Origin: a virus | Virus record (IMG/VR): IMGVR_UViG_3300025728_000346 | Coordinates: 1-31,525 of that record | DNA: 31,525 bases | Reading direction: 5' to 3' (one strand) | In this document: positions 1,054 through 8,109 of the stretch, in pieces | Position numbering within the stretch: position 1 is the first letter of the stretch | Layout: the number at the start of each line of letters is the position of its first letter | Notes under the pieces: model-generated | The model's database searches: none | What the model was told of the DNA's origin: nothing | What the model saw: only the letters and a program-made list of their open reading frames with translations | Position numbers and translations under genes: made by a program

Positions 1054-1056
1054 AAA

Positions 1057-1078
1057 AAGCCCTCATATCTGAGGGCTT
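1057..1078 (-). terminator. Terminator hairpin overlapping the int ribosome-binding site
   Basis: A perfect 9-bp stem (AAGCCCTCA / TGAGGGCTT) with a 4-nt loop is followed, in the leftward direction, by five T residues and then directly by the int ATG. It is a good intrinsic terminator for the cI-OLD transcript. The right arm contains GAGGG, which is also the only Shine-Dalgarno sequence for int, so a transcript carrying the whole hairpin should hide it. Confidence 0.75.
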
Positions 1079-1079
1079 A

Positions 1080-1108
1080 ATTTAACTGTGTATTTGAACA
1101 GTAATCAA
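1080..1108 (-). promoter_or_regulatory. Candidate LexA-controlled int promoter
   Basis: On the minus strand TTGATT (1103-1108) and TTAAAT (1080-1085) are separated by 17 nt, a plausible sigma-70 promoter facing int. The spacer holds CTGT-N8-ACAG (1086-1101), the core of a LexA box. The 20-nt box (1084-1103) matches the consensus at about 15 of 20 positions. Expected transcription start is near 1073, inside the left arm of the hairpin at 1057-1078. Promoter and operator are read from sequence only. Confidence 0.5.
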
Positions 1109-1126
1109 TGTTTTCTCAGGTATAAA

Positions 1127-2896
1127 TCATACAACTGGTGTTATCCACGCCACCAAGTCCTCAACACTATCATAATCAGTGCAGATGTCTGACAGAGGTT
1201 GTGCCTCAGCGTTAGATTTGAATTCGGCCCAAGCCGATTCACTTTTTTCTGTCAGGCCCAGATGATTTTCAATTGCTCCTTTTTGCCAAATCCATATATT
1301 TGATTCTAGTAATTTATTAGCCAAAGATAATATTAGTGGTGCCGCATTAGCTTTTTGTGACATAAGTTCATATGCTTGCGCTGCAGTAACTACACCATTC
1401 TTTGTTGGTAATCCAGAAGCATCTAATGCACATTGCCCATCATTCTGCATATCAACTAAAATAGCCTTAAGCCCGATAATATCGGGGTCGTTACTTTGTA
1501 GGAAATTATTTCTTATTGCACCCCTGAGTGCAAAATCAAGATCAACGATTGCCTTTGTCGGTATGTCCATACTGGCAAGTATTTGCATGGTTTTTGAAAT
1601 GCTATCAACTGAACCAGTTTCTATTAGAGCCACTTGCATTTGACCTGTTGTTTTATTATTTATTTTTTTGAATATAAATGGCAATAGGGTTGTTTCAGTT
1701 TTCCCTTCTGTTAGAACAACGTTATTAGCAAATAATATTTTTGAAGATTGAGTTAGTGAAAATAAATGTGTGGCTTGCGCAGGACGTTGTACTATTACTT
1801 GATTTACTGCTTCAGATATTGTCAACCTACAATGTGTTCCTTGTTGGTTGTTTTTTCGTATTAAAATAGTATCCTTAGCCAAATCTGAAGTAATCATTTG
1901 TGAGGAGTGAGTTGAAAAAATGATTTGATAGCCATGTTGGGATAAGGTATTTAATGATTCTCTTATTTGTTCTATTGCAAAAGGATGGAGATATAATTCT
2001 GGCTCATCAATTAATAGTAAGGTTGTTGTTCCGATGTTCTCATTTGTAGTAATGTCAGCTAAATGGCGAATAAGCGCCATCTGGATAGAGCGCTGAGTTC
2101 CATGACCGTAACATGAGCAGTCTCTTGCTATATCTGGCAGAGAGTCTTCGTAAACTTTTACTGTTCCAGCTTTAAAAATATCTTCAAAATTCGGAAGTTC
2201 AAAATGTAGTTTAAGATTGATGCCAGGAAAAAAATCTGCAACTTTATCACTAATTGAGTTATCGATATCAACAAGGTCTGATAGTCTTTTATTTCCTGAG
2301 GCCGTCATTCTCCTGTTTACTGCTTCTATGTGCTTCAATATTCTATTTGAGTGTTGCTCCTGAATTTTAGCGCTCAACTCTGATAATAATTTACCTATTG
2401 TTGATCCTGCTTTTGATTTAGACGAATCCTCTGCTGCGTTTTCCATCGCTCCGATGCGTATAGGATCTGGAAATAAGGCCTTTATCGCATTATCGATCCC
2501 TGATGGCGATGGTCGGAATAGGCCACTATCTGGATTTTTTATTAGTAGCTTCACATCTTTTGCTGCTAATGCACCAACAGACTGGGTACGTTTGAATGTT
2601 AATGTGCCTGCTGTAATAAATGGATTAATACGATTTCTGTTTTCTTCTGTTAAAGCTGACAGTATCTCGTCGGTAATACCTTCAACTTTACCCTCAACTT
2701 CTATCTCGTTATCATTATTAAAGTAATCGCTTGGTGATAATACCTTTTTCTTAAATAACCACTCAATAGCGTTCAGAACAGTGGATTTTCCCGCATTATT
2801 GTATCCAATTAAAGGTGTGAACAAGGAAAAATTTAAATTAATTTCTTTACAAGATCTAAAGTTTTTAATTGATATATTTGAAAGTCTATGGCTCAT
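1127..2896 (-). CDS. OLD-family ATPase with TOPRIM nuclease domain (class 1)
   Basis: Predicted ATP-dependent DNA nuclease of the overcoming-lysogenization-defect family, whose founder is P2 Old. The 589 residues compare with 586 for P2 Old. The N-terminal ABC-type ATPase shows Walker A GYNNAGKST (31-39), a signature-like YGHGTQRS (263-270), Walker B LLLIDEPELYLHP (293-305) and the switch His in STH (328-330). The TOPRIM domain follows with LTEGKTE (395-401, Glu-397) and Asp-452-x-Asp-454. No UvrD/GajB-type helicase lies beside it, so this is a stand-alone class 1 protein. The ATG has GGGA upstream and lies 21 nt behind the cI stop, which suggests one lysogenic transcript. The gene is more AT-rich than int. 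P2 carries its own old near cos, so this location is different. Exclusion of other phages is the likely role, but the target is unknown. Confidence 0.9.
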   Translation of the reverse strand: MSHRLSNISIKNFRSCKEINLNFSLFTPLIGYNNAGKSTVLNAIEWLFKKKVLSPSDYFNNDNEIEVEGKVEGITDEILSALTEENRNRINPFITAGTLTFKRTQSVGALAAKDVKLLIKNPDSGLFRPSPSGIDNAIKALFPDPIRIGAMENAAEDSSKSKAGSTIGKLLSELSAKIQEQHSNRILKHIEAVNRRMTASGNKRLSDLVDIDNSISDKVADFFPGINLKLHFELPNFEDIFKAGTVKVYEDSLPDIARDCSCYGHGTQRSIQMALIRHLADITTNENIGTTTLLLIDEPELYLHPFAIEQIRESLNTLSQHGYQIIFSTHSSQMITSDLAKDTILIRKNNQQGTHCRLTISEAVNQVIVQRPAQATHLFSLTQSSKILFANNVVLTEGKTETTLLPFIFKKINNKTTGQMQVALIETGSVDSISKTMQILASMDIPTKAIVDLDFALRGAIRNNFLQSNDPDIIGLKAILVDMQNDGQCALDASGLPTKNGVVTAAQAYELMSQKANAAPLILSLANKLLESNIWIWQKGAIENHLGLTEKSESAWAEFKSNAEAQPLSDICTDYDSVEDLVAWITPVV

Positions 2897-2917: not shown

Positions 2918-3475
2918 TCATTTTATTTTCAAAACAACACTTGCCGTTACTTCTATATCGTCCAGCATACAGTCAAATTCTTTGCTGCCCCCAGAAACGA
3001 GAATTTTATTTTTAGGCAGGCGTGTTATTTCTCGAATGGAGACTTCATTGTCAATGTTAACTAGCCATATACCATCACGAACGTTAGTAAAATCCTTACT
3101 GCAAACGTAATTATCTTGCCCGTGACGAACAAAAAACAACCGACTAACTTTTGTAGGCAAAAGAGAGTTATCGAATGTTACAGCACCGTTTTCAGATAGC
3201 ACTCCCTCTACTAGGTCAAATCTAGGTAGACTAGTTGTGTTCTCTTTTTGTGAACTTGTCGGCCTGCCAGTTCCAGTAACAAGCCACGCTAAGTCAGATT
3301 CAGTTTCTAATGCACATTGAATTACCCACTCTGCAGGAAAAGAGTCACGCATGTATCTAGTTGCTAAAGTGCTTTTTGATATACCTAAATGATCACATAA
3401 AGCCTGTCTTGTCTTGAAACCATAGGCTTCAACCATGCGCTCTATAGCCCCACGACCGCCTTTTTCCAAATTCAT
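2918..3475 (-). CDS. cI: 186-type CI repressor
   Basis: Lysogeny repressor of 185 residues, near the 192 of 186 CI and much longer than the 99-residue P2 C. The N-terminal third resembles the phage CI helix-turn-helix family, with residues around 15-40 (TRQALCDHLGISKSTLATRY) as the DNA-binding segment. The C-terminal half should be the oligomerisation domain. No clear Ala-Gly cleavage site with Ser/Lys dyad is recognised, which agrees with 186-type repressors that are removed by an antirepressor and are not cleaved by RecA. The ATG at 3475 has TTGGAG 5 nt upstream. It is divergent from apl/cox, and OLD follows closely downstream in the same direction. Confidence 0.88.
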   Translation of the reverse strand: MNLEKGGRGAIERMVEAYGFKTRQALCDHLGISKSTLATRYMRDSFPAEWVIQCALETESDLAWLVTGTGRPTSSQKENTTSLPRFDLVEGVLSENGAVTFDNSLLPTKVSRLFFVRHGQDNYVCSKDFTNVRDGIWLVNIDNEVSIREITRLPKNKILVSGGSKEFDCMLDDIEVTASVVLKIK

Positions 3476-3600: not shown

Positions 3601-3822
3601 ATGAGACCTAACATTTCAATCACTCTCATCACCCCCCACGTCACTATCGAAAGATATAGTGAACTCACTGGGTTATCTATCGACACCATCAACGACATGC
3701 TTGCAGATGGTCGATTGCTTCGTCATCGCCTACGCAAGGACAAAAAGCGTGAAAAAGTGATGATTAACATCGCTGCGATGACGGTCGATGCCCTGTCTGA
3801 TTGCAACGTGACTATCAACTAG
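3601..3822 (+). CDS. Apl/Cox-type excisionase and regulator
   Basis: Small DNA-binding protein of 73 residues at the place of 186 apl and P2 cox. Those proteins repress the lysogenic promoter and direct Int towards excision. The sequence has the winged-helix excisionase pattern: ITPHVTIERYSELTGLSIDTINDML, then a basic turn RHRLRKDKKREK and a short strand. ATG 3601 is chosen because GAGG lies at 3586-3589. The frame is open back to a TTG at 3577, but no ribosome-binding site precedes that codon. It is the first gene after the early promoter. Family assignment rests on size, position and the helix-turn-wing pattern. Confidence 0.75.
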   Translation: MRPNISITLITPHVTIERYSELTGLSIDTINDMLADGRLLRHRLRKDKKREKVMINIAAMTVDALSDCNVTIN

Positions 3823-3854: not shown

Positions 3855-4364
3855 ATGTTTGACTATCGCATATCAAAACATCCTTATTTCAATGAAGCTT
3901 GCCGGGCTTTCGCTATACGCCACAACATGGCGAAGTTGGCAGAGCGAGCAGGTATGAACGTTCAAACCCTGCGTAATAAGCTTAACCCTGAGCAACCACA
4001 TCAGCTCACAGCACCTGATATTTGGCTGCTGACCGATCTCACCGAAGACTCAACGCTGGTTGACGGGTTCCTGGCTCAGATTCACTGCCTGCCATGCGTA
4101 CCAACCAATGAAGTTGCACGGGAGAAAATGCCTCAGTACGTTCTGAAAGCTACCGCTGAGATCGGCCGTGTCGCTGCAAGTGCGGTTTCTGGTGCTCAGC
4201 TAAATGCAACCACCCGTCGCCAGGTTGTTGAAAGCGTCAACGCTGTTACCCGTCTAATGGCACTTACAGCTATTTCACTGCAGGCGCGTTTGCAGGCCAA
4301 TCCGGCAATGGCCAGTGTCGTCGATACCGTAACGGGCCTTGGCTCCTCGTTTGGGCTGAACTGA
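3855..4364 (+). CDS. cII: Phage regulatory protein CII (186 type)
   Basis: The 169-residue protein is the same length as 186 CII, the transcription activator that promotes establishment of lysogeny. The opening MFDYRISKHPYFNEACRAF and the helix-turn-helix MAKLAERAGMNVQTLRNKL (about residues 25-43) are typical of the phage CII/CP76 family. The C-terminal part is Ala-rich and helical. A CGGAG sequence lies 9 nt before the ATG. fil follows after 7 nt. In 186, CII acts on a separate promoter for cI; no such site is identified here. Confidence 0.88.
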   Translation: MFDYRISKHPYFNEACRAFAIRHNMAKLAERAGMNVQTLRNKLNPEQPHQLTAPDIWLLTDLTEDSTLVDGFLAQIHCLPCVPTNEVAREKMPQYVLKATAEIGRVAASAVSGAQLNATTRRQVVESVNAVTRLMALTAISLQARLQANPAMASVVDTVTGLGSSFGLN

Positions 4365-7887: not shown

Positions 7888-7907
7888 TACTGTATATATA
7901 AACAGTA
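7888..7907. promoter_or_regulatory. Near-perfect LexA box (SOS operator)
   Basis: TACTGTATATATAAACAGTA differs from the LexA consensus at a single position and keeps the invariant CTGT-N8-ACAG. It lies 16 nt before the GTG of the gene at 7924, between A and cos. A -10 element probably lies within the TATATA of the box. Repression by LexA and induction by DNA damage are the expected behaviour. Confidence 0.88.
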
Positions 7908-7923: not shown

Positions 7924-8109
7924 GTGAACGATTTGTTCATGGAGTCACTTGCACTGCAGCGGATAGAACTTATGGCCCGGCTGGTTGCTAGCTCAGATTG
8001 TAGCGATGACGACAAGGAGGTTGCGATCTCGTGGCTGTCGGAGCTGACTAGCGATCTGGTTACCAGGCTAAATGAATATGGAGTAGGGCATGATGAGAGT
8101 ACGCATTAG
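7924..8109 (+). CDS. LexA-controlled small protein, possible antirepressor
   Basis: Sixty-one-residue acidic, helical protein starting at GTG 7924 behind the long purine-rich site AGGGGAGGGAG. It follows a near-consensus LexA box and is therefore very likely SOS-induced. In 186 the same interval between A and cos carries tum, the LexA-controlled antirepressor that inactivates CI. Tum is more than twice as long and no sequence similarity is recognised, so only position and regulation support that role. Small LexA-controlled antirepressors are known in Salmonella prophages. Since the CI here is of the 186 type, an inducer of this kind is required if the prophage responds to DNA damage. Confidence 0.7.
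   Translation: MNDLFMESLALQRIELMARLVASSDCSDDDKEVAISWLSELTSDLVTRLNEYGVGHDESTH

Follow-up and report, generated by a model that had tools for sequence, protein, structure and literature searches.

A candidate int promoter cassette in 186-type phages combining a CII-type operator, a LexA box and a hairpin over the ribosome site

Introduction

The int promoter pI of phage lambda lies inside xis, is activated by lambda CII when lysogeny is established and is silent in the lysogen. A different form of control operates in IS10 and IS50, the insertion sequences of Tn10 and Tn5, where incoming RNA folds over the ribosome site and the element's own transcript escapes. Stem-loops of IS200 both terminate transcripts that arrive from outside and mask the ribosome site (cited in PMC3196728), and the IS50 transposase promoter carries a weak LexA site (PMC4265352). 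Among tyrosine recombinases, the integron integrases (intI) have a LexA box in the promoter, and SOS induction releases recombination (PMC3108266); LexA binding upstream of an integrase has also been observed in vitro for the int promoter of a gut-metagenome phage (PMC3998124).

The usual picture of 186-type phages treats int control as a by-product of the cI operon. The CII protein of these phages is unrelated to lambda CII, and in 186 the SOS response additionally switches on tum from p95, and pR is thereby freed of CI (PMC7708051). The locus described here appears to join several of these features in front of a 186-type int gene. Its parts are known singly; their union in one 186-type phage cassette was not found in the searchable literature, and an earlier description of a cassette with a CII site, a LexA box and a lock on the Shine-Dalgarno (SD) sequence in such a phage was not found in open-access sources.

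Results

Gene order in the window

The window, i.e., the whole 31.5-kb stretch of DNA analysed, from a virus of gut bacteria (IMG/VR virus record IMGVR_UViG_3300025728_000346, positions 1-31,525), begins with the minus-strand int gene (1-1053), coding for a P2/186-type tyrosine integrase of 350 aa (PHROG integrase, E 6e-71). Further along the same strand lie a gene for an OLD-family ATPase/TOPRIM nuclease, regarded here as cargo (1127-2896; PADLOC Old, E 8e-232; Pfam OLD-like_TOPRIM), and the cI repressor gene (2918-3475; PHROG transcriptional repressor, E 5e-34). On the plus strand are found an apl/cox-type gene for an excisionase and repressor (3601-3822; PHROG Cox-like, E 1.5e-29) and the cII activator gene (3855-4364; PHROG CII-like activator, E 1.5e-52), whose product is 67% identical to 186 CII. 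The window phage itself thus encodes a CII of the 186 type.

The int promoter and its LexA box

The earlier note on this DNA had described an int-facing promoter with a LexA box in its spacer, a 9-bp hairpin and an SD sequence, and all of these are present on the minus strand where it had placed them. The -35 element TTGATT (1103-1108), read from the sequence, is conserved in relatives, most of which have TTGACC or TTGACA; it is separated by a 17-nt spacer (1086-1102) from the -10 element TTAAAT (1080-1085), which is conserved among close relatives. A consensus promoter scan of the window did not list this promoter because TTGATT/TTAAAT fall below the threshold of the scan. The LexA operator TACTGTTCAAATACACAGTT (1084-1103, minus strand) occupies the spacer between -35 and -10, with its core CTGT-N8-ACAG at 1086-1101.

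Scored with a matrix built from 20 E. coli LexA sites, the int box reaches 21.2 bits, against 13.0-26.1 bits (median 19.9) for the known sites themselves. Across the whole window it ranks second to a site at 7888-7907 (28.0 bits), the next match scoring 9.9 bits, and no maximum among 15 shuffled windows exceeded 15.7 bits. The plain LexA pattern with up to three mismatches gave 8 matches in the window vs. 5.8 expected, so that the matrix and the conservation of the box bear the weight. Over 55 distinct boxes, CTG and CAG are invariant and the middle is variable. The box is retained by all close relatives whose upstream sequence extends far enough, which lends sequence support to the earlier proposal of a dedicated LexA-type int promoter.

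The 9.9-bit match (2645-2664, one mismatch to TACTGT-N8-ACAGTA) lies inside the OLD coding region and is probably a chance occurrence. The best-scoring site, a perfect LexA box TACTGTATATATAAACAGTA, stands 16 bp before an ORF of 61 aa (7924-8109) with a weak DinI/Tum-like PHROG match, and this ORF is probably an SOS-induced antirepressor or DinI-like gene.

A candidate CII-type operator overlapping the int -35 element

An inverted repeat absent from the earlier note overlaps the int -35 element and matches the phage's own CII operator, which is of the 186 pE type. This candidate operator (1108-1134, minus strand) consists of the half-sites TTGTATG (1134-1128) and AAAACAT (1114-1108), 13 bp apart, and the last base of the right half-site coincides with the first of the -35 element. 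The operator of the window's pE, ATGTTTT-N13-CAAACAT (3855-3881, minus strand), overlaps the cII start codon and is the best CII-type site in the window; in the 186 genome record, where the pE CII site is annotated, the pE strand reads ATGTTTG-N13-CAAACAT.

Only pE sites, 19 distinct ones, went into the half-site matrix; because they lie in cII, they are independent of the int leader. Applied to the whole window, it places pE first (19.96 bits) and the int-promoter site second (12.1 bits). The latter has three mismatches to the 186 consensus ATGTTTG-N13-CAAACAT, which is found exactly upstream of int in locus L121 and, with N12, in L344 and L100. Among int upstream sequences that bear a LexA box, 93% score above the 95th shuffle percentile with this matrix, vs. 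10% of those without a box, and in nearly all relatives the CII-type site ends 5-6 bp before the LexA core. The idea that integrase appears only after LexA release is made unlikely by a candidate CII-type operator overlapping the -35 element.

The left half-site overlaps the last codons and the stop of OLD (window 1127-1134), so that the cargo extends into the operator, and the OLD-bearing relatives L015 and L067 likewise deviate at the first two bases of this half-site. Altered half-sites in L116 (ATGTTCG/CGGACAT) were considered as CII co-evolution and set aside, as both cII and int are broken there. A further, near-identical CII-type repeat, ATGTATG-N13-CATACAA, occurs upstream of int in L358 (at 3279) and L359 (at 4218), possibly marking another CII-controlled promoter.

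A hairpin over the int Shine-Dalgarno sequence

The hairpin (1057-1078, minus strand) has a 9-bp stem with arms at 1078-1070 and 1065-1057 and a 4-nt loop, and its 3' arm contains the only int SD, GAGGG (1060-1064), six bases before the ATG at 1053. It folds with -15.2 kcal/mol (z = -3.4), and 1 of 200 shuffled sequences folded as well. A terminator scan of the window did not list it, and an Rfam search of the region returned no family at threshold, with sub-threshold chance matches only.

The hairpin had been described earlier as a terminator. The 9-bp stem is indeed there, with three T remaining past it in the window, and in the window clade and the E. coli types the stem is GC-rich and followed by T. 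Termination as the main conserved function was nevertheless rejected: the U-tract is absent in eight loci (L090, L094, L095, L100, L121, L125, L338 and L341) that keep the SD-hiding stem, and since the U-tract is often lost while the pairing of the SD is kept, the conserved function is taken to be SD occlusion. The same loci bear on a simpler account, in which LexA alone controls int, the hairpin is mainly a terminator of the cI-cargo transcript and the upstream repeat has no role. It would explain the strong LexA box and the GC-rich, T-flanked stems of the window clade and the E. coli types, but not the loci that dispense with the U-tract, nor an upstream repeat that matches the pE operator and stands at a fixed distance across distant clades; we consider it unlikely.

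As the stems are out of register between lineages, pairing was assessed by permuting arms between leaders rather than by counting pairs in a MAFFT alignment. In 13 representative leaders with clearly different arms, two of which (the window and L024) are close kin, own arms gave a mean of -15.0 kcal/mol vs. -8.3 for swapped arms, and none of 20,000 permutations was as low. In read-through RNA the SD is predicted to be almost wholly paired, with a mean unpaired probability of 0.01 in the window and a median of 0.02 over 59 leaders. The arm-swap difference supports, at the level of sequence, the earlier suggestion that the hairpin hides the int SD from read-through RNA. It may still be asked whether the hairpin instead serves to bind a protein or small RNA, e.g., Int regulating its own leader, and although phage integrases are often autoregulated (PMC2951348) and the lack of an Rfam family leaves room for an unlisted RNA element, this is very improbable given that arm and loop sequences vary widely between lineages and only the pairing and the burial of the SD are kept.

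Escape of locally started RNA from the hairpin would depend on the exact start. In 186, 35 bp lie between the end of the pE CII site and the annotated end of the promoter; if that annotated end is the start point of pE, equal spacing at int would give a start at 1073. The first purine after 1073 is at 1070, 10 nt past the -10 element and at the long end of the range, and the predicted start region is accordingly 1070-1073 (minus strand). The modelled unpaired probability of the SD rises from 0.02 for a start at 1074 to 0.19 at 1073, 0.51 at 1072, 0.76 at 1071 and 0.79 at 1070. The fold energy of the leader with the first codons is -18.3 kcal/mol for the full RNA, -9.0 for a start at 1073 and -5.5 for 1071 or later, about -5.5 being due to the coding part. 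These values suggest partial escape at 1073 and good escape from 1072 on. The earlier expectation that local RNA exposes the SD is therefore borne out by the model for starts at 1072 or later, whereas RNA begun at 1073 would still carry about half of the first arm, with the SD largely paired.

Relatives with and without the cassette

About 100 related int loci were read at first, and later 149 distinct upstream sequences; most loci are related, so that their counts are not independent and conservation alone overstates independence. Three lines of support are independent of this: the matrix made from pE sites alone, the distant clade in which int is unlinked, and the permutation of hairpin arms.

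The cassette is present in all close relatives (about 70% integrase identity or more) that were readable far enough upstream, whatever adjoins it, and a large clade of 186-like prophages keeps it with OLD, with other cargo or with no cargo at all. In ESSI2_ev129 only 78 bp separate cI from int, and this short interval accommodates a CII repeat that is exact, together with a LexA box and an SD hairpin; in E. coli PSS-08-1, OLD stands together with an E. coli-type cassette. The earlier note had tied the rewiring of int to the insertion of OLD, a link that does not survive the comparison of relatives with and without OLD, the same cassette occurring in both and beside many other cargo genes or none. 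The cassette is absent in 186, Fels-2, RE-2010 and Yersinia phage YenM324, where int follows cI or a short operon. In 186, where int directly abuts cI, neither a promoter nor a LexA box or hairpin precedes it, in agreement with the view that it is read from the repressor promoter.

The distant clade consists of five loci (L341, L342, L344, L303 and L305) with int 52-56% identical. Two members were examined, L358/L341 and L360/L344; in both, int comes after the tail gene D, and an ogr gene was identified in L360. The cII gene lies about 30 kb away on the same contig in four of the five, that of L341 being on another contig. These cII genes start with the same CII operator, and both the CII-type repeat and the LexA box are retained in the int leaders; the SD hairpin is clear in L341 and L342 and not in L303 and L305. 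The P2-like prophages of L358-L362 have int co-directional with tail genes and far from cI and cII, and still have a CII-type repeat and LexA box at int.

This arrangement bears on the proposal that Int is made mainly by read-through from pE/pL, as in 186, with the hairpin only lowering translation and the local promoter playing a minor part. Cargo and int are co-directional with cI, and in 186, with its abutting int, an int-lacZ fusion reports leftward transcription (PMC7708051), but the sole SD is buried in read-through RNA and phages with int placed after the tail genes, about 30 kb from cI and cII, keep the cassette, which makes such a proposal decidedly unlikely.

LexA-type boxes are present in more than one int clade. 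On the integrase tree the "box" label needs six changes, five of them forced by well-supported branches, and LexA-type control therefore has more than one origin or several losses. The int genes of L312, L320 and L322 have a LexA box over the -10 element (CTGTATATAATNACAG), a separate SOS layout without the CII repeat.

A 73-base query of the E. coli-type cassette is matched, with a coverage of at least 80%, in no fewer than 1,012 (about one-fifth) of the 5,426 complete E. coli genomes. A second cassette type is found in 962 complete E. coli genomes, a set that overlaps the first.

The slot between cI and int

In relatives, the slot between cI and the cassette holds many different cargo genes, mostly co-directional, and the final cargo gene mostly stops 71-92 bp short of the int start, i.e., one cassette length. 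Besides OLD, matches include an AriA/OLD-like ATPase, PD-Lambda-1, PDC-S20 (a KAP NTPase) and a HEPN_Swt1 domain, and many genes have no match. The cargo of L003, L014, L019, L020, L028 and L061 has no match or distant matches only, making these genes candidates for new anti-phage systems. A defence hotspot between cI and int has been reported for P2-related phages of Vibrionaceae (PMC9122126). The cassette looks like a border that would let cargo be read together with cI without Int being made.

Discussion

We favour, with a probability of roughly 70%, the reading that int in this phage is governed by a free-standing cassette that CII would activate at infection and LexA would repress in lysogens until SOS releases it, with an RNA lock protecting against read-through. 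The elements themselves, their conservation and the co-variation of the hairpin arms are demonstrated by the sequence statistics; we infer from them that CII activates and LexA represses the promoter, where its transcript starts and that the hairpin acts as a translational lock.

During infection, CII bound to the operator overlapping the -35 element would switch int on, as at pE. In the lysogen there would be no CII, LexA in the spacer would keep int off, and RNA reading through from cI and the cargo would hide the SD in the hairpin, so that no Int would be made from it. Cleavage of LexA upon SOS would open int, and RNA from the cassette's own promoter, which would be without all or half of the first arm, could be translated; which way recombination runs would then depend on Apl, expressed from pR. 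At infection, LexA should be an obstacle to the int promoter as well, which counts against activation by CII.

By freeing int from cI, the cassette would permit cargo to settle between the two or int to be relocated. Whether a portable three-input cassette, by making int independent of the repressor operon, permits both the defence-gene slot and the relocation of int to the far prophage end is in our estimation an even bet. The cassette could explain how defence genes come to gather between cI and int while the integrase stays off. A large group of phages, present in about one-fifth of complete E. coli genomes, would then control int by a promoter of its own that joins infection and DNA-damage signals within about 80 bp.

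Comparison with known systems

The proposed cassette resembles lambda pI in giving int its own promoter, which, as proposed here from sequence, the phage's CII would activate when lysogeny is established and which would be silent in the lysogen. Differences are that the window encodes a 186-type CII, that the cassette additionally has a LexA operator and the proposed SD lock, that int shares no transcript with the excisionase gene and that the promoter does not lie within that gene. Closer at the level of the operator is 186 pE, with the same CII family and the same layout overlapping the -35 element, whereas the 186 cI-int operon differs in having int directly after cI without promoter, LexA box or hairpin.

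The integron integrases share the LexA box, but in intI it overlaps the -10 element, a CII site is absent and such a hairpin was not considered. The gut-metagenome case is a single one with a Gram-positive LexA motif, for which neither a CII site nor an SD lock was reported. With IS10, IS50 and IS200 the window shares an SD predicted to be buried in a hairpin of RNA derived from outside, although those elements protect a transposase rather than a phage integrase and have no phage activator. The combination would present a directly testable case of convergence with both lambda pI and the self-protection of transposons.
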